Origin: a virus | Reading direction: 5' to 3' (one strand) | DNA: 52,084 nucleotides | Virus record (IMG/VR): IMGVR_UViG_3300025890_000038 | Span: 1-52,084 of that record | In this document: piece after piece, positions 3,375 to 41,136 of the stretch | Position numbering within the stretch: the first letter of the stretch is position 1 | Layout: each line of letters begins with the position of its first letter | The notes under the pieces: model-generated | Told to the model about the DNA's origin: nothing | The model's database searches: none | What the model saw: the letters and a program-made list of their open reading frames with translations, nothing else | Translations under genes and position numbers: made by a program

Positions 3375-5462
3375 ATGGTTCAGACATGGGTCGAGACAGA
3401 CGAAACGGCTGAAGGCGATACCGTTAAGACGGGACTCATCAACACCGAGGACAAGCATGACACTCAACAGTCCTGCTGGTCAGGCTCTACTGCGCCGTCA
3501 GACTCTTTGACAGTCATCGGTCAATTGTGGGCAGACACTTCCAGCACTCCAGTACTAAAGTTCCTGGAGTCAAAGTCTCCGGACGTCTGGAAGATTGTCG
3601 TGACACAGGGTGACGCACAAGTCAATCCTGCAACTCTTGCCACCGATGCTGTCGAGACAGCGAAGATCGATGACCTTGCAGTCACCACAGCAAAGATCGC
3701 GCTGCTGGGAGTCGACACGGCTCAGCTTGCTGCTGACGCTGTCGAGACGGCGAAGATCGATGACCTTGCAGTCACCACGGCAAAGATCGCACTGCTGGGC
3801 GTTGACACAGCTCAGCTTGCGGCCTCTGCAGTTGAAGCTGCGAAGATCGCCACCAGTGCCGTCGAGACCGATAAGATTAACGCTCTCGCTGTCACCGAGG
3901 CGAAGATTGGAGCAGCCGCCGTCACCGAAGCCAAGCTCGGCACAGACGCTGTCACGACGGCTAAGATTGCTGACCAAAATGTGACGGCAGCGAAGATGAA
4001 GGCTACAGGTTCAGATCCCTTTGTCTTCGGCAAGCGGAGTACAGACTCGGTTCCTGTTGAAGTGCCGTTGTCGGAAGTGCAGGGAGATGCCGGTCGTTAT
4101 GTGACGGCTCTTCCGAACAGCATCTCCAAAGGTGCTCACACGATGGCGGTACTGACGATCGACGATGAAATCTGGACCATCGGATCATGCACGCACGGCT
4201 CACCTCAAATCGCTTCTGGGCGAGCGGACAACTACAACTGGACTCCGGTCATCTTCGATGCTCCGCGAGGCACGATTGACAAGTTCTACCTGAGTTCTCA
4301 CTCAGGCTTCGCCATCGACTCCAACGGAGATGTCTGGGCATGGGGCGGCAACGCTAATGGTCAGCTCGGACTCGGCGACCTGGTGCGAAGAAACGTCGCG
4401 ACTCAGATCACTGCTTTGAGTGGAGTCAATGTCGACGAAGTGATTGTTGCTGACTTTGGGCACGGTGATCAGGACAGCACCTTCTTCATCACTGACACAG
4501 GAGCAGTCTGGTGCTGCGGCTACAATCTCTATGGTCAGCTCGGAATGGGAGACACTACTCAACGCAGCACAGCTACCCTCAACACGTCACTGACCAGCAT
4601 CGAGCAAATCTCTTACAGCAACTCGGGACGAGGGCACTGCATCTCGCGAGACACTTCAGGAGCAGTCAAGACCTGGGGGTACAACGGTCACGGTCAGCTT
4701 GGAGACGGCACCACGACTAACCAGGACACTCCTACCACAGTAGGAGCGCTGACCGGCGTGGATTTCGTCAAGGCAATTGCTCAGGAATGGTCGACGGGTT
4801 CCCGCACACATGCTGTGGACGGAGCCACAATGGACAGTGCAGGCTACAACGCCCACGGCTGCCTGGGCGACACGACCACGACACAGCGCACCACCTTTGT
4901 GGCTGCAACGATCGGAGGAAGTCCTGCAGACATCGTGGACATTCAGGGTAGTGAAGGATTTCAGAACGGAATCCTTCGAGACAGTGCAGGAGACCTGTAT
5001 TCCGCAGGGCACAACACCCACGGAACACTTGGACTGGGAGACACTGCAGTGCATTCAGCTTCCGGGTACGAAGCTGTCACAATGCCTTCCACGACTGCAG
5101 TAAAGCACTTCATCTACAACGGCATCAGCGGAAATGCAACTGCCATGTTCCTCGGAGCAGACGGCGAACTGTACGCTACAGGATACAACCTCGATGGCTC
5201 CCTGGGACAAGGAACCGTGACCGCGCTGTCCAGCTTTACACAGGTTATTCGATTTGGTTCTGAGACTTTGACGGACCTCATCATTGCAGGCGGACACCCA
5301 ACTCTCGGAGCAGGCAGCGAGTCGGCAGCCTTCGCGATCGACGCCAGCGGCACCTTGTATGCGGTCGGAAATCTCGGCGACCTGGGCATCGGATTGCCCA
5401 TTAGCGACCTGGGCAATCCTGACCGATCTCACTGGTTTATGGTCCCTGTTCCTGTGATTTAA
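3375..5462 (+). CDS. Tail-fibre protein with RCC1-type beta-propeller
   Basis: 695 residues. The ATG follows AAGGA by 9 bp. Residues about 1-70 form an N-terminal, probably virion-attaching part. Residues 75-215 are a regular series of 11-12-residue repeats of the type AVxTAKIxxLAVTTAKI, a fibrous pattern common in phage tail shafts. Residues about 240-690 contain RCC1 propeller repeats with signatures such as WAWGGNANGQLGLGD, WCCGYNLYGQLGMGD and TWGYNGHGQLGDGT. RCC1 propellers usually bind proteins or lipids, so as the distal domain of a fibre this is a plausible receptor-binding head. Two nearly identical 75-bp DNA blocks within 3640-3830 are a likely site of repeat expansion. The gene ends just before the fibre-operon terminator. 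Confidence 0.85.
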   Translation: MVQTWVETDETAEGDTVKTGLINTEDKHDTQQSCWSGSTAPSDSLTVIGQLWADTSSTPVLKFLESKSPDVWKIVVTQGDAQVNPATLATDAVETAKIDDLAVTTAKIALLGVDTAQLAADAVETAKIDDLAVTTAKIALLGVDTAQLAASAVEAAKIATSAVETDKINALAVTEAKIGAAAVTEAKLGTDAVTTAKIADQNVTAAKMKATGSDPFVFGKRSTDSVPVEVPLSEVQGDAGRYVTALPNSISKGAHTMAVLTIDDEIWTIGSCTHGSPQIASGRADNYNWTPVIFDAPRGTIDKFYLSSHSGFAIDSNGDVWAWGGNANGQLGLGDLVRRNVATQITALSGVNVDEVIVADFGHGDQDSTFFITDTGAVWCCGYNLYGQLGMGDTTQRSTATLNTSLTSIEQISYSNSGRGHCISRDTSGAVKTWGYNGHGQLGDGTTTNQDTPTTVGALTGVDFVKAIAQEWSTGSRTHAVDGATMDSAGYNAHGCLGDTTTTQRTTFVAATIGGSPADIVDIQGSEGFQNGILRDSAGDLYSAGHNTHGTLGLGDTAVHSASGYEAVTMPSTTAVKHFIYNGISGNATAMFLGADGELYATGYNLDGSLGQGTVTALSSFTQVIRFGSETLTDLIIAGGHPTLGAGSESAAFAIDASGTLYAVGNLGDLGIGLPISDLGNPDRSHWFMVPVPVI

Positions 5463-8448: not shown

Positions 8449-8522
8449 AATCGTAGCTGACATTGATCAAGTCAGTAGGTAGGTCGGTCCACCGACTGAG
8501 GGTTCAAATCCCTCTGCGATTA
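8449..8522 (+). ncRNA. tRNA-like cloverleaf with abnormal anticodon arm
   Basis: Exactly 74 nt. The 7-bp acceptor pairs AATCGTA (8449-8455) with TGCGATT (8515-8521; one G-T). The T arm is canonical, GAGGG-TTCAAAT-CCCTC (8498-8514). The D-arm position holds CTGAC/GTCAG closing a loop that lacks the usual GG. The anticodon position folds as GTCGG-TCCA-CCGAC, a 5-bp stem with a four-base loop, so no normal seven-base anticodon loop exists. No CCA is encoded. It may be a decayed tRNA, a tRNA mimic or a processing signal for the mRNA of the gene at 8638. The surrounding 300 bp hold nothing else I can support apart from short hairpins. Confidence 0.5.
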
Positions 8523-19715: not shown

Positions 19716-19978
19716 ACGCTTCTGCGGACTTTTTCGGCCAGTCGGGCATGACGTCCCAATGCGAAGAGGAAGCGACACCCAAGGGGAACCGAATAACCTT
19801 GGGGCATTTGAAGCAAGCTTCGGACCTCTCGAATGAAAAAGCTTTGTCTGTCGCAGGTCCGACACCGGCAGACTCGCAGCTACGGCGAACTTGGGAAGCT
19901 CGTGACCCTCTGAGGAAACCCGAGCACGTAGTAAGGCTTCAGCTCGGTGTAAGCTTGGCTGTTGCAATGAGGGCATCA
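19716..19978 (+). other. Non-coding stretch before tRNA-Leu
   Basis: 263 bp without a credible gene; the open frame crossing it continues into the tRNA. Several short hairpins are possible (CCAAGG/CCTTGG near 19780; TCGGACC/GGTCCGA enclosing 19830-19850). It is probably the 5' part of the tRNA precursor or another structured RNA. Confidence 0.35.
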
Positions 19979-20125
19979 GGTCTCGTGGTGGAATTGGTAG
20001 ACACAGGAGCCTAAAGCTCTGGCAAAAGGTAGCCTCGACAAGCGTGCAAGGAAAGTTGTTCTGTACAAGCAACTTTCTGGAGAGGAGTGCTGAGTAGCGT
20101 GGGGGTTCGAATCCCTCCAGGACCA
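19979..20125 (+). tRNA. tRNA-Leu(UAA) with an oversized variable region
   Basis: The 5' half is typical of tRNA-Leu: acceptor GGTCTCG (19979-19985), TGGTGGAATTGGTAGACAC D arm, and anticodon loop CCTAAAG (20010-20016), which reads UAA but has C instead of U at position 33. The 3' half has the T arm GGGGG-TTCGAAT-CCCTC (20101-20117) and CAGGACC (20118-20124), pairing with the 5' acceptor apart from one G-T and one C-A. The total is 147 nt, about 60 more than a normal tRNA-Leu. The excess lies between anticodon and T arms and contains a strong hairpin GAAAGTTG/CAACTTTC (20051-20077). CCCGTC/GACGGG hairpin follows the 3' end. Confidence 0.75.
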
Positions 20126-20207
20126 CTCCCGTCTTTGGTTGGACGGGAAATCCAAGAGTTATGTGTTAGCCAGTCCGAAAGGGTGTGGGTAGCCGAGTCT
20201 TGGGCGT

Positions 20208-20275
20208 TTAGGGCCAGCCTGCGGAATCAGGTTTGTAGTGACTCCGGGGTGACGCAGGCTGGCTTACTTTTGTTT
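20208..20275 (+). terminator. Terminator-like hairpin with embedded operator half
   Basis: GCCAGCCTGCG (20213-20223) pairs perfectly with CGCAGGCTGGC (20253-20263) across 29 nt, followed by a T-rich tail. The 5' arm contains TAGGGCCAGC, an operator-like sequence. Confidence 0.65.
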
Positions 20276-20295: not shown

Positions 20296-20481
20296 ATGCT
20301 GGTACTGTCACGACTCAAAGACGAATCGATCATCCTCAATGAGAACATCGTAATTACAATCGTAGACATCCGAGGCGACAAGGTTCGCCTCGGCATTGAA
20401 GCACCGAAAGAAATTCCTGTACATCGGCAGGAAGTTCACGAAGCAATTCAACGAGAGAGGGAATTGAGCGAGCAGCAGTAG
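20296..20481 (+). CDS. csrA: CsrA/RsmA-family RNA-binding translational regulator
   Basis: 61 residues, the normal CsrA length, with CGGAGG 8 bp before the ATG. MLVLSRLKDESIIL, ITIVDIRGDKVRLGIEAPKEIPVHRQEV follows the family from end to end; the RNA-contacting Leu4, Arg6 and the VHR arginine are present. CsrA dimers bind GGA motifs in RNA loops, often covering ribosome binding sites. Here it may control phage operons, whose leaders repeatedly carry GGAGTCACTACG, or reprogram host carbon and biofilm regulation. It is a single-gene unit between two strong terminators. Confidence 0.93.
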   Translation: MLVLSRLKDESIILNENIVITIVDIRGDKVRLGIEAPKEIPVHRQEVHEAIQRERELSEQQ

Positions 20482-24892: not shown

Positions 24893-24928
24893 TTGACATT
24901 GTCTGGCCCTAAGACTACTCTGGCCCTA
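24893..24928 (+). promoter_or_regulatory. Promoter with two operators
   Basis: TTGACA, 17-bp spacer with TCTGGCCCTA (24902-24911), TACTCT (24916-24921); a second exact operator (24919-24928) covers the -10 and the expected start of transcription. Confidence 0.85.
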
Positions 24929-24950
24929 ACTTTGTCACGCAGGAGAAGAG

Positions 24951-29527: not shown

Positions 29528-29551
29528 GCAATTTTGGAAAACTTTTCAGAA

Positions 29552-29580
29552 TAGGGCCAGATGGGTTGCATCTGGCCCTA
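29552..29580 (+). promoter_or_regulatory. Perfect inverted pair of operators
   Basis: TAGGGCCAGATG and CATCTGGCCCTA separated by GGTTG: a 12-bp perfect inverted repeat with a full-consensus operator in each arm. It is preceded by GAAAACTTTTC. The second half lies in the spacer of a possible promoter (TTGCAT 29566, TACGAT 29588, spacing 16) for the gene at 29745. As RNA the repeat would also form a strong hairpin. Confidence 0.7.
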
Positions 29581-29744
29581 TGCTTTGTACGATACCATTA
29601 TTGAAGACGTCACAACAAACATCAACACGAAAGCGGTGACCATCATGATTGGCTGAAAGGGGCAGGCGAAAAGCCAGCAAAGATTCCTAAGACCCCTCGG
29701 ATGTGACTTTTCTTTTTCGCGGCAACTAACCCAAGGGAGATGTG

Positions 29745-29933
29745 ATGAAGAACGCGACCTGTCCTGACTGCGGAAAGCATCACCAGATCGACCAGAAGAC
29801 TTTCGACCAGTTTGGTGTGGACTGCTACTGCCTGCCGTGTGTCGACTGGGCACATGTCAAATTCATGCAGAACAACAAAGCAGGAATCAAGACCTGCGTC
29901 AAAGGCTGCCGATGCGGTTTCGGTGGCAAGTGA
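29745..29933 (+). CDS. Small cysteine-rich zinc-binding protein
   Basis: 62 residues. ATG 29745 follows AAGGGAG. Cysteines occur as CPDCG (residues 6-10), CYCLPC (about 27-32) and C...CRCG near the C-terminus: enough for two zinc sites. The long leader (29600-29744) has no other gene. Its stop codon directly precedes the 21-bp helix of the RNA at 29935. Confidence 0.65.
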   Translation: MKNATCPDCGKHHQIDQKTFDQFGVDCYCLPCVDWAHVKFMQNNKAGIKTCVKGCRCGFGGK

Positions 29934-29934
29934 A

Positions 29935-30113
29935 GGAAAGGGTGAGCAGGGAACTGGCCGGTTTGGCACCGGACATTCACCCTGGCTGTCGAGAGCTATA
30001 CCGAGTCGTACGCAAGGTGGTTCTCTACTTCGTGAGATATCCTCGAAGTAAACCGGCAGCAAAGAGTTCGGCAAACCTGGTTCGAAACCAGGAGTTCCCT
30101 GCTCGCCCTTTCC
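29935..30113 (+). ncRNA. Large structured RNA closed by a 21-bp helix with tRNA-like T arm
   Basis: Positions 29935-29955 pair with 30093-30113 over 21 bp (20 Watson-Crick and one G-T). The inner 7 bp (GGGAACT/AGTTCCC) sit directly next to CCTGG-TTCGAAA-CCAGG (30076-30092), a perfect T arm, exactly as an acceptor stem does in tRNA. A D-arm-like hairpin CCGG-TTTGGCA-CCGG follows the 5' strand (29958-29972). Where an anticodon arm would be there are about 100 nt with a 7-bp hairpin TACTTCG/CGAAGTA (30027-30051). It starts 1 bp after a stop codon. It may be a tmRNA- or tRNA-derived RNA, or a processing element for the downstream mRNA. Confidence 0.7.
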
Positions 30114-30151: not shown

Positions 30152-30610
30152 ATGCCCCGAGTCACCTACGTTAAAAAAGCCCGCAAAGACAATCCTGTCG
30201 CCAAAAAAGGCGAGCCGTACTACTGGTGGCAATTTGCCTACAGCTCAAAGAGCTACAGCAGGACTCGGCCACGAGCCAGTCAACTGACGCGATCAGAATT
30301 TCTTTCCACGATCTATTCAGTCTGTGAAGAAATCGAAGACGCTGGAGAAGATGATTTCGAAGAGACTGACGATGTGGTCAGTTTCATTGATGACCTGGTG
30401 AGTCAGGTTGAAGAGCTGAAAGACAACTGCGAGTGCAACAAAGACGCAATGCCTGAATCGCTGCAGGACTCTCCTACCGCAGAGCTGCTTGAAGGTCGTG
30501 TTGAAAGCTGCGATGTAATGATCGATCAGCTTGAGTCGGCCAAAGATCAGGACGAGAGTGTTACGACGATGGTGGAAGAGCTGCAGGCAGTCTCTTACGA
30601 CGGAGAATGA
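30152..30610 (+). CDS. Conserved phage hypothetical protein
   Basis: 152 residues from ATG 30152 behind the common leader GGAGTCACTACG. The N-terminus (GEPYYWWQFAYSSKSYSRTRPRASQLTRSEF, residues 20-50) is a pattern I recognise from many uncharacterised phage proteins; the remainder is acidic and coiled-coil-like (EEIEDAGEDDFEET). Basic head plus acidic tail may indicate nucleic-acid mimicry or binding. Function unknown. Confidence 0.72.
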   Translation: MPRVTYVKKARKDNPVAKKGEPYYWWQFAYSSKSYSRTRPRASQLTRSEFLSTIYSVCEEIEDAGEDDFEETDDVVSFIDDLVSQVEELKDNCECNKDAMPESLQDSPTAELLEGRVESCDVMIDQLESAKDQDESVTTMVEELQAVSYDGE

Positions 30611-35638: not shown

Positions 35639-35945
35639 TCACTTCATGGTGACGTCGCGAGACATCGACATCTTCGTTGATGATTACGACAACGACCTGC
35701 GGATCGTCTACCGAGTGCGGTACGACCTGATGCGTGTCGACATCGCCAGACTCAACAACTACGACAAAGAGAAGCACTGCTGGCAGGATTACTTGAGTCG
35801 CTCGGAGAAAGAGATTCCGAACAAACGCGGCATGAAGAAGCTGCTGGAGTGGATCAAAGAACTCAACCTTAAGTACTACGGCTATCCGAATCCGAGGATG
35901 GCTTCCTATTACCTCAAAGACGGCAAGCGAACGCATGTCGCATAG
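35598..35945 (+). CDS. Hypothetical protein overlapping the preceding gene
   Basis: 115 residues if started at ATG 35598; ATG 35589 and ATG 35646 (with AAGAAGG upstream) are alternatives. The frame after 35646 has normal amino-acid composition (IFVDDYDNDLRIVYRVRYDLMRVDIARL) and no competing gene after 35638. No motif recognised. Confidence 0.55.
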   Translation: MTFNEILILLKKADHFMVTSRDIDIFVDDYDNDLRIVYRVRYDLMRVDIARLNNYDKEKHCWQDYLSRSEKEIPNKRGMKKLLEWIKELNLKYYGYPNPRMASYYLKDGKRTHVA

Positions 35946-35955
35946 GACCATTGAT

Positions 35956-36675
35956 ATGATCACTAAAGAGACATTTGCAGGCATGAGTATTGATCCTTGC
36001 ATTCGTGAAGCCATTGACGAGAGTCGTCTTCAAGGTGACCAGGTGCAGTTCGAATTCAATGGAGTCATCGTCATCGTCAGCGAAAAGTCTGACCCTGATG
36101 CGATTCAGTTTCAGTGGGATCGTTGCCTGATGGGATACCTCGGACCTTCTGGTCGAGTGTTGCCTTTTGCCTCGAAGTATCTGACTCCGAAGCAGATCAA
36201 AAGTGATGCTCGACATGCGGCGGCTCGACATGCTCGACAGGAAAAGTACCGACTGGAGTTGGAGCGACGTGACGCAGAGAAGCGAAGCATCCTGCAGGTC
36301 GAGATGCATGGGCAGGAGTTCCAGGTCCATGCGGAGCTGCTCGAAGAATGGGAAGAGTGTGTGGAAAAGAACTCTGCAGAGGGCTACAGCGCTCGCTGCG
36401 TCTCCTATGCCCAGGAGTGGGCTAAGATTATGCAGAATCGAATGCAGCATGGTCAGACGCTCGTCGAGATGGCAGATGAGACATCTCACATGGCCGACTA
36501 CGACGGCATCACAGGCTTCATGTACGGAGCTGCTGTGTCAATGCTGAGTAAGTTCTGGATTCACGGTGAGTCGCTGCGTCGTTGGCACAACAAAGAGACT
36601 CAGCTCGATGATGAAGGTGACCGTGCCAACGAGAGTGGCGGAGTTCTTAACCCTGCGGTCTTAATTATTGGATAA
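35956..36675 (+). CDS. Conserved phage hypothetical protein
   Basis: 239 residues. ATG 35956 has AGGA 11 bp upstream; ATG 35935 is possible. Residues 85-150 are a charged coiled coil (RHAAARHARQEKYRLELERRDAEKRS). The C-terminal part (GITGFMYGAAVSMLSKFWIHGESLRRWHN) is a pattern I have seen in other phage early proteins. Function unknown. Confidence 0.65.
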   Translation: MITKETFAGMSIDPCIREAIDESRLQGDQVQFEFNGVIVIVSEKSDPDAIQFQWDRCLMGYLGPSGRVLPFASKYLTPKQIKSDARHAAARHARQEKYRLELERRDAEKRSILQVEMHGQEFQVHAELLEEWEECVEKNSAEGYSARCVSYAQEWAKIMQNRMQHGQTLVEMADETSHMADYDGITGFMYGAAVSMLSKFWIHGESLRRWHNKETQLDDEGDRANESGGVLNPAVLIIG

Positions 36676-36682
36676 TGAGTTC

Positions 36683-37126
36683 ATGACTGAACAAGTACCT
36701 GGATTTGTAAGCTTCTCTTTCGACGAAGATGCTCTCCGTAAGATCGTGCAGCATGAGATCGAAACGTTCGTCAGCGGCAAGCTGCAGCGAGGTCAGACCG
36801 ACTCCGAGACGATCAGGCTGCAGTCAGAACGCATCCGCGACCAGGTAGCTTTGATCGGCAAGCTGGAAGTGCAGTTGGACGAAGAGAGGCAGAAAGAATC
36901 CAACCTCGCAAAGGATGCTTTCTGCCTGGCGAATTGGATGAGGCACAACAAATGCCAGATCGAATTTGAGTGGCAGTATCCGGACAGCAACTGCGACAAA
37001 GGCTGCATGACGATTACCGTCTTCAATGAAAAGACAGCCTACAAAATGCTGATCCCTCGCAAGGACACAGAAGACTCTCTGGGAACGATGTTCGAAAAAG
37101 CGGTGAGAAATCTCAAACAAGCATGA
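36683..37126 (+). CDS. Hypothetical coiled-coil protein
   Basis: 147 residues from ATG 36683; TTG 36668 is an alternative overlapping the upstream stop. A heptad-rich central helix (residues 40-75, ERIRDQVALIGKLEVQLDEERQ) and a beta-rich C-terminal part with CQIEFEWQYPDSNC. ATGA overlap with the next gene. Unknown function. Confidence 0.6.
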   Translation: MTEQVPGFVSFSFDEDALRKIVQHEIETFVSGKLQRGQTDSETIRLQSERIRDQVALIGKLEVQLDEERQKESNLAKDAFCLANWMRHNKCQIEFEWQYPDSNCDKGCMTITVFNEKTAYKMLIPRKDTEDSLGTMFEKAVRNLKQA

Positions 37127-37680
37127 TCAACGAGAACGTCGCATCACTGACCTCTGACCAGCTTCAGCGGATGCCCGAGTACGACTGGCTTCGTCGTGTC
37201 TGGGTGCCGTTGGACTGGAAGCGTGACGGCGCGGAGACATTGGAGTGGGTGCTGGATGAGCATTCTGAAAAGCGAAAGCTGATCGACTGGCTGGTCAGAG
37301 TGGGTGATGATTTCATCGACAAGGAACGAGCTGCAAGGAAGAAAGCTGAGCAGGAGAAGCAGAAGATGGAAAACGAGCAGCCACTTTTCACACTGCAGCA
37401 TCTGGCTGACGGTCAGTGCCGGGTGGCGTACCGATGGAATCCAGACAAATGCACCAAGGATCAGCGATACATTCAACTCAATCATGAGGATATTGGAAGT
37501 AAGACAATTCACTGCGCTGGCTATGGAAGCTGCTGTGTGAAGTCAGAGAAGGAAGCGAAGGCCTGGTTGGACAGGCACACTGTTGTTGAAGACCCAGGGA
37601 CGACGTACAAGAAGGCGGCTGCCTGGGCTCGGAAGTGGAAGCTTGTTGTTCGAATCATTAACAGGATGAGGTGGGTTTAA
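37123..37680 (+). CDS. Hypothetical protein
   Basis: 185 residues, overlapping the previous stop by 4 bp. Trp-rich N-terminus, a Lys/Glu coiled-coil (RAARKKAEQEKQKMENEQ, residues 68-85) and a basic C-terminus. Cysteines in the CAGYGSCC segment may be structural. No family recognised. Confidence 0.6.
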   Translation: MINENVASLTSDQLQRMPEYDWLRRVWVPLDWKRDGAETLEWVLDEHSEKRKLIDWLVRVGDDFIDKERAARKKAEQEKQKMENEQPLFTLQHLADGQCRVAYRWNPDKCTKDQRYIQLNHEDIGSKTIHCAGYGSCCVKSEKEAKAWLDRHTVVEDPGTTYKKAAAWARKWKLVVRIINRMRWV

Positions 37681-37742
37681 GACCACATCGTTTTCATCTG
37701 CCTGTGACTTTGCAGGCAAAGTCAAAGACACATGAGGAAATA

Positions 37743-38288
37743 ATGGGATACTTCATCGGAGTGAAAGCAGCGGACGACCTGGACCGTATCGTCGAGTCGT
37801 TGCGAGGTGCGATTCCTGGCTGCACCCAGGAAGCGTTGGTGGGGCTGCGCGGTCAGGCTCACATCACCGTCGCCCACCTGGGCAGACAGATGCCTGACAT
37901 TTCTACCTTCGAGCAGATCAGTCAGACGTGCGTGCCGTTTGAGATTTCTTTTGAAGGTGTCTCGATCTTCCGTAACCAGCGGACGACTCACCTGGTGCTG
38001 CCTGTTGCTATGGGCAATGCCGAAATGAAGCTGATGTATGCGAAGCTTCGGAAGACCGGCAAAAGTCCTGACCGTGTCTTCAATGCTCACATGACAGTCG
38101 CCACGGTGCCGACTGATGCTGCAGGTGAGTCTGTTGCGTATCGAAAGATGCTTGGCTTCCGCGAGAAGTTCAAGTCGCAGAAGTGGGGCAACATGGTTGT
38201 CGATTCTTTCAAACTCTTCACGTCGACCAAAGGTATTGTCAAGGTCACGGACTCGTGGAGACTCTCTGGCACAGAAGAGGTGATGTGA
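37743..38288 (+). CDS. 2H phosphoesterase (LigT/Acb1-like)
   Basis: 181 residues, with TGAGGAAA upstream of the ATG. Two H-x-T motifs define the 2H superfamily: AHITVAHLG (His40, Thr42) and AHMTVATV (His116, Thr118), with strands IFRNQRTTHLVLPV between them. Enzymes of this fold open 2',3'-cyclic phosphates in RNA or degrade cyclic (oligo)nucleotides; T4 Acb1, an anti-CBASS protein, belongs to it. An anti-defence or tRNA-repair role is a reasonable inference. Ends in a TGATG overlap. Confidence 0.82.
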   Translation: MGYFIGVKAADDLDRIVESLRGAIPGCTQEALVGLRGQAHITVAHLGRQMPDISTFEQISQTCVPFEISFEGVSIFRNQRTTHLVLPVAMGNAEMKLMYAKLRKTGKSPDRVFNAHMTVATVPTDAAGESVAYRKMLGFREKFKSQKWGNMVVDSFKLFTSTKGIVKVTDSWRLSGTEEVM

Positions 38289-40832: not shown

Positions 40833-41071
40833 GACTCTACTTTACAAGCAGCTCAAGTGATAATTGGATCGGCTATCTAGCCAGCCGTGGCCAGACCGTC
40901 ACCGTGGGAACGATCGAAAGATTTGGTCCCAATAATGCCACGAACTTTATCCACTACATGGCAATCGTCGGCGACCAGTTCACCGGCAAAAAGCACCGCA
41001 CCCTGGGTGGAGCGAAGCTGGACATTGAATCCAAACTTCTGGAAATTGTCAAAAGTGGCTTGACGGAATAA
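40829..41071 (+). CDS. Hypothetical 80-residue protein
   Basis: ATGA overlap with the gene before. Beta-rich with a helical C-terminus (GGAKLDIESKLLEIVKSG). No motif recognised. The next promoter begins inside its last codons. Confidence 0.55.
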   Translation: MRLYFTSSSSDNWIGYLASRGQTVTVGTIERFGPNNATNFIHYMAIVGDQFTGKKHRTLGGAKLDIESKLLEIVKSGLTE

Positions 41072-41136
41072 AGCTCTGGCCCTAAGCTGTCGATGTAACA
41101 AGTTAAACGGTAATCCCCTGCACTGGAGTCACTACG
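41060..41136 (+). promoter_or_regulatory. Promoter/operator/leader cassette
   Basis: TTGACG, 17 bp, TAAGCT (41083-41088) with TCTGGCCCTA at 41075-41084. The leader TAACAAGTTAAACGGTAATC and GGAGTCACTACG recur almost identically before the gene at 42829. Confidence 0.85.

Follow-up and report, generated by a model that had tools for sequence, protein, structure and literature searches.

The gap between two genes of a phage genome raises the question of whether the DNA there encodes a structured RNA and, if so, of what kind. The source record is a 52-kb siphophage-like virus whose main genes all lie on the + strand and whose primase shares about 50% identity with its counterparts in several Pseudomonas siphophages, including Epa5, PaMx11 and Ab18. 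The whole stretch analysed (52,084 nucleotides) is referred to as the window, and coordinates are those of the window unless another record is named. The element and its two neighbours are given below (L004 and L005 are related IMG/VR contigs).

29745..29933, + strand: upstream gene, coding for a 62-aa Cys-rich protein, zinc-ribbon-like (CxxC pattern), 92% identical in L005.
29935..30113, + strand: predicted structured RNA element, a tRNA-like domain with an extended closing helix (z = -7.5; 52/52 pairs kept in L004/L005).
30152..30610, + strand: downstream gene (152 aa), with distant homologues in many phages.

The element is intercistronic, lying between the upstream stop (TGA, 29931-29933) and the next start (ATG, 30152). 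It had been described as taking up the whole gap between the stop codon and the next leader, which holds to within one base: the element starts 1 nt past the stop, and the remainder is a 38-nt leader between its end and the next start. It is present in a single copy, none being found elsewhere in the 52-kb window, and its inverted repeat is unique there and also the best long-range one. Since neither a promoter-like site directly 5' nor a terminator-like site directly 3' of the element was seen on the + strand, the element is probably cut out of the operon mRNA. In several gaps (29548-29584, 24900-24930, 41070-41090 and others) we observed a recurrent CTGGCCCTA(AG) motif, one palindromic copy of which lies upstream of the 62-aa gene; the motif may serve the phage as a promoter or operator.

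The predicted fold has the following parts.

29935..29955, + strand: 5' strand of the closing helix, 21 bp (24 bp in L005), with three one-sided pair-preserving changes and zero breaking changes.
30093..30113, + strand: 3' strand of the closing helix, 21 bp, pairing with 29935..29955.
29949..29955, + strand: acceptor-stem equivalent, 7 bp, 5' half GGGAACT (partner 30093-30099), 2 nt from the D arm and 0 nt from the T arm.
29958..29972, + strand: D arm, CCGG-TTTGGCA-CCGG, the loop GG and terminal A standing as tRNA positions 18, 19 and 21.
30076..30092, + strand: T arm, CCTGG-TTCGAAA-CCAGG, with a U-A to G-C double change in L005 and an invariant loop.

The closing helix is uninterrupted over its 21 pairs, of which 20 are Watson-Crick and one is U-G. 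The T arm, a 5-bp stem with the loop UUCGAAA, abuts the 3' acceptor strand without any gap, so that the 21-bp helix stacked on a perfect T arm was found as first described. The D-arm-like hairpin noted on the 5' side also took shape, with a 4-bp stem and a 7-nt loop (UUUGGCA) placed 2 nt past the acceptor equivalent, which is the exact tRNA spacing. Between the D and T arms lie about 100 nt, with a branched domain where the anticodon arm would be. The minimum free energy was -89.8 kcal/mol (compare -57.5 +/- 4.3 in dinucleotide shuffles; z = -7.5), and 0 of 200 shuffles folded as well. A descriptor combining a T arm and a 7-bp acceptor matched twice in the window, against 0.07 matches per shuffled 52 kb.

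We then compared the element with its counterpart in L004 and L005, which are identical to each other here, so that the set comprises two independent sequences. Both contigs carry the element between the same two genes as the window. The alignment of the window with L005 spans 180 columns, with 24 substitutions and one 1-nt indel; identity is 86% within the element and 29% over the 17 nt immediately after it. On this sequence comparison the element is a discrete conserved unit. Although 14 of the 24 substitutions fall at paired sites, all 52 pairs are intact in both viruses, and random placement of equal substitutions gave a simulated P of ~5e-6, a somewhat optimistic value because the tested structure was derived using both sequences. 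Four double compensatory changes are found, every one in a different helix (D stem, T stem, and hairpins A and B described below), together with six one-sided changes that still pair. In the D stem, L005 shows a C-G to A-U double change as well as a G-C to G-U change. When the partners were slid by 1-3 columns, pairing fell from 100% to at most 55%; the shuffle control was weak (41/500), as expected with only two sequences. The fold energy of the relative gave z = -6.1, compared with -7.5 for the window. The original prediction had named the absence of compensatory changes in homologues as grounds for abandoning it; four double and six one-sided changes are present, and none of the 52 pairs is broken. 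The retention of all pairs despite 14 paired-site substitutions indicates, from the two sequences, that the element is a genuine structured RNA as a fold.

The D arm required separate consideration. Nearest-neighbour folding alone disfavours it, with a pair probability of about 0.01 in both viruses, each of which prefers other pairings for the D-arm strand. The alternative preferred in the window joins CCGGUUU to AAACCGG, and two of its pairs no longer form in L005. Because this competing helix is lost there while a double change keeps the D arm, we accepted the D arm as probably real, on comparison and tRNA geometry and against the energy.

RNAalifold, run on the two sequences, returned the closing helix, the D arm, the T arm and a branched domain made of one closing helix and two hairpins, which agrees with the roughly 100 nt said to replace the anticodon domain.

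29986..30059, + strand: branched domain in the anticodon-arm position, its closing helix (29986-29990/30055-30059) enclosing two hairpins (RNAalifold consensus, window and L005).
29991..30025, + strand: hairpin A of the branched domain, with one compensatory change, two one-sided changes and no broken pair.
29995..30020, + strand: 26-nt stretch GCTATACCGAGTCGTACGCAAGGTGG, identical in both viruses, apical loop with the palindrome CGTACG.
30026..30050, + strand: hairpin B of the branched domain, with a C-G to U-A double change.

The closing helix of this domain is invariant, so covariation cannot speak for it, and in L005 energy minimisation of that sequence by itself does not prefer hairpins A and B. 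The invariant 26-nt stretch includes a 13-nt loop carrying the palindrome (CGUACG in the RNA), and one may speculate that it binds a protein or pairs two RNAs. As an antisense to its own genome the 26-nt core was rejected, its longest complement (9 nt) being at chance level.

How widespread is this RNA? No Rfam family matched at the element up to E = 10 in gathering or permissive scans, nor did the group I intron and phi29 pRNA models up to the same value. Nucleotide searches of phages and plasmids gave nothing above chance, and the 26-nt core was not found in cellular genomes. Viral contigs were scanned with three pieces of the element (its exact 3' part, its 5' part and the 26-nt core), a gapped D-loop/T-loop pattern and three proteins; only L004/L005 emerged, other pattern matches being devoid of the fold. 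A covariance model (R1), run over loci of related phages totalling ~1.5 Mb and over 22 records in full, brought no additional member. As none of the sequence, pattern and covariance-model searches went beyond L004/L005, the RNA family appears to have two known members. The absence of an Rfam match and the compensatory changes in L005 support the view that this is a novel RNA, in which a tRNA-like domain carries an insert replacing the anticodon arm.

To which class does it belong? Several features of the body of a decoding tRNA are present, namely the 7-bp acceptor, the D and T arms and the standard spacing, and both the D and T stems covary. The 5-bp anticodon stem and the 7-nt loop with U33 and an anticodon are not present in the element, which has the branched domain instead. 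The 3' CCA is not encoded, T-GCT coming after the acceptor. ARAGORN at its default settings called no tRNA over the window, and with introns allowed it called only the Leu-like gene described below; the Rfam tRNA model did not match at the element. Given the absent anticodon arm, the blank default ARAGORN result and the poor forced intron readings (see below), the element is not a decoding tRNA.

The original prediction had found the element reminiscent of tmRNA, a likeness that did not withstand comparison. As in tmRNA (RF00023), an acceptor and a T arm are combined with a large domain replacing the anticodon arm. tmRNA, however, has no D stem, and the tmRNA covariance models did not match the element while detecting the controls in known genomes. 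As had been anticipated, there is no evident tag reading frame: no frame is conserved to a common stop in both viruses, and the only frame common to both ends differently, being broken by stops or by the 1-nt indel. The presence of a D stem and the absence of a common tag frame and of a model match thus argue that the element is not a tmRNA. Coding was rejected on both strands: in the sense direction reading is cut off by stops or frame breaks, and the antisense frame, in which 14 of the 24 changes fall at third positions (a count inflated because of paired sites), is interrupted in L005 by the 1-nt indel and a stop.

The clade contains other unusual tRNA-like genes.

Window 8449..8522, + strand: tRNA-like RNA in which a 4-nt hairpin loop takes the place of the anticodon loop.
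Window 19979..20125, + strand: tRNA-Leu-like, enlarged by ~70 nt and non-canonical in its anticodon loop (Rfam tRNA 30 bits; found by ARAGORN with an intron allowed only).
L005 7993-8062: tRNA-like, the anticodon stem capped by a loop of 5 nt.
L006 6585-6653: tRNA-like, the anticodon stem likewise capped by a loop of 5 nt.
L005 13435-13509: tRNA-like, with an odd loop lacking U33.
G004 54412-54491 (L128:14412-14490): tRNA-Gly-like, the anticodon loop replaced by the palindrome TTCCCATGGGAA, giving a continuous hairpin (tRNA model 59.5 bits).

There are thus at least five other tRNA-like genes, located in intergenic gaps, which retain the acceptor and T arm and in which the anticodon loop is missing or non-canonical; they do not have the long closing helix. 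More distant phages in the sample carry ordinary tRNAs. The whole set is without a normal anticodon loop, an observation made by reading the folds and with no statistic behind it, and this absence points away from translation. Just upstream of tRNA-like genes lies a noncoding foldable stretch, ~72% conserved (window 19811-19975; L006 6400-6551). At L006 4500-5700, adjoining the tRNA-like locus, several short genes are found between integron-attC-like repeats (AACGCC...GTTATGC); the region looks like captured gene cassettes in a phage genome, and a search of the genome collection for exact copies of the repeat found none.

What could such an RNA do? Its structure is well supported, and its function has to be inferred. 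The reading we put first, tentatively and at somewhat less than even chances, is that the element is a phage-encoded non-decoding tRNA mimic, cut from the operon mRNA and serving as a decoy for proteins that bind or cut tRNAs. RNase III requires about two turns of perfect helix, which makes the 21-24 bp helix a natural substrate, and the acceptor/T-arm stack is a recognition feature of RNase P. Release from the operon transcript would then involve RNase III acting on the long helix, and RNase P with 3' tRNA processing acting on the acceptor/T-arm stack, the leader/trailer helix lengthening the acceptor to 21-24 bp. Once freed, the anticodon-less body would tie up proteins that recognise tRNAs by their elbow and acceptor. 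The likeliest targets would be defence nucleases of the host directed at tRNAs, or factors that bind tRNAs, to which no anticodon loop would be offered for cutting, and the invariant 26-nt loop might provide a second, specific contact.

Precedents exist for several parts of this scheme. The tRNA-like domain of YrlA is not cut by a tRNA (anticodon) nuclease and has been proposed to be a competitive inhibitor of that nuclease (PMC7790460). The cutting of tRNAs is a common form of bacterial defence, to which phages respond with altered tRNAs (PMC10264068, PMC12851939), among them phage tRNAs carrying anticodon-loop changes that evade nucleases (PMC10264068). On the strength of the YrlA precedent, the frequency of such defences and the altered phage tRNAs, we ranked the decoy first, mRNA punctuation second, a leader regulator third and a Y-RNA-like scaffold fourth. 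Further support was counted from the other tRNA-like genes of the clade, whose anticodon loops are missing or odd, and from the Tad4 anti-Thoeris gene located 5.8 kb downstream of the element, which is too distant for strong guilt by association. In a broader and more doubtful version, the clade would carry anticodon-less tRNA mimics as RNA counter-defence; the element would be the most elaborate of them, released by RNase III and combining an elbow that captures tRNA-cutting or tRNA-sensing immune proteins with a recognition domain bearing the invariant loop.

Counted against the decoy are the small number of independent sequences (two), the poor standing of the D arm by energy alone, and the position of the element between a stop codon and a ribosome site, which suits a role in cis equally well. 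RNase III cutting of the 21-24 bp helix, perhaps with RNase P at the acceptor end, could separate and protect the flanking messages, the excised RNA having no job of its own. Such punctuation of the mRNA, which we regard as possible but doubtful, would account for an element placed 1 nt past the upstream stop and 38 nt ahead of the next start, for the lack of an own promoter or terminator, and for the roughly two turns of perfect helix, suited to RNase III. A simple hairpin would however suffice for this purpose, and the conserved elbow, the branched domain, the invariant 26-nt loop and the other tRNA-like genes, which have no long helix, are left unexplained.

The same location, directly upstream of the ribosome site of the 152-aa gene and with synteny retained in L004/L005, would also fit a 5' leader regulator of that gene, for instance one sensing a tRNA-binding protein. 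We consider this unlikely: no alternative pairing hiding the ribosome site was seen, and homologues of the downstream gene elsewhere are without the RNA. Slightly less likely again is a Y-RNA-like scaffold, in which a tRNA-mimic module and a long stem would tether a ring protein of the Ro60 type to another factor. The general plan is that of bacterial YrlA, a tRNA-mimic domain carried by a long stem that the RNA ends form by pairing, and phages are reportedly among the carriers of YrlA (Chen 2014, cited in PMC7790460 and PMC12282133). The YrlA model (RF02553) did not match the element, though, no Ro60 site is evident in its stem, which is a perfect helix, and no TROVE/Ro60 gene was found in five clade records, which are possibly incomplete; a host protein could serve.

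A real tRNA restored by splicing out an intron or insert is very improbable: ARAGORN at relaxed thresholds can force a tRNA-Ser(CGA) with a 62-nt intron, but the forced anticodon stem is poor, default thresholds call nothing, no group I intron matched, and the reading would break hairpins that covary inside the supposed intron/exon boundary, which disfavours it. Least credible is a DNA-level feature (a miniature transposon or an attachment site, the 21-bp arms being its terminal inverted repeats), suggested by the perfect inverted repeat with its 137 bp spacing and disfavoured by the covariation, since the internal compensatory changes are explicable only by an RNA fold, and by the single copy, found at the same place in both viruses with no flanking target-site duplication visible.

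Other genes of the window also deserve mention. A Tad4-type Thoeris inhibitor (PF25186, E = 4.8e-26) is encoded at 35935-36675 and a LigT-like 2'-5' RNA ligase/phosphoesterase at 37671-38288, which suggests that the 35935-38288 region is a counter-defence stretch. A phage-encoded CsrA (PF02599, E = 3.6e-23) is found at 20296-20481, and also in L005 and L006; it is preceded by a leader (20205-20275) with a strongly conserved hairpin, GCCAGCCTGCG...CGCAGGCTGGC, which could be an autoregulatory CsrA leader. In view of this gene a CsrA sponge was considered for the element and rejected, the GGA of the D stem not being retained in L005. Finally, one protein (3375-5462) has both tail-fibre-like and RCC1-repeat-like regions.

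To our knowledge, RNA-based phage counter-measures are barely known, although bacteria commonly use tRNA-cutting against viruses. A tRNA body kept while the anticodon arm is discarded, in a clade whose other tRNA-like genes are likewise non-canonical at the anticodon, makes the question of phage tRNA decoys directly testable, and RNAs such as this element are overlooked by default ARAGORN and Rfam annotation.

How does the element compare with known RNAs? The stable RNAs C and D of phage T4 are small, are made with tRNAs and have no established function; they are encoded in a tRNA cluster, unlike the element. The packaging RNA of phi29 is of similar size and likewise has a 5'/3' helix, a three-way junction and a loop capable of self-pairing (CGUACG in the element), whereas the element has a tRNA elbow, no Rfam match and a phage of another type. 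With phage tRNAs bearing altered anticodon loops it shares a phage tRNA body, a changed anticodon region and a possible counter-defence role, but those tRNAs decode and the element has lost the anticodon arm entirely (PMC10264068). Its overall plan is closest to that of YrlA, a tRNA-mimic module on a long helix of the RNA ends without decoding function, from which it differs by its greater length, its three-way domain, its perfect 21-24 bp stem and the lack of both a model match and a Ro60 gene in the records, so that it is not a member by model or partner gene. The kind already known is thus that of the tRNA-mimicking noncoding RNAs, of which the element appears, from its sequence and predicted fold, to be a variant not previously in Rfam.
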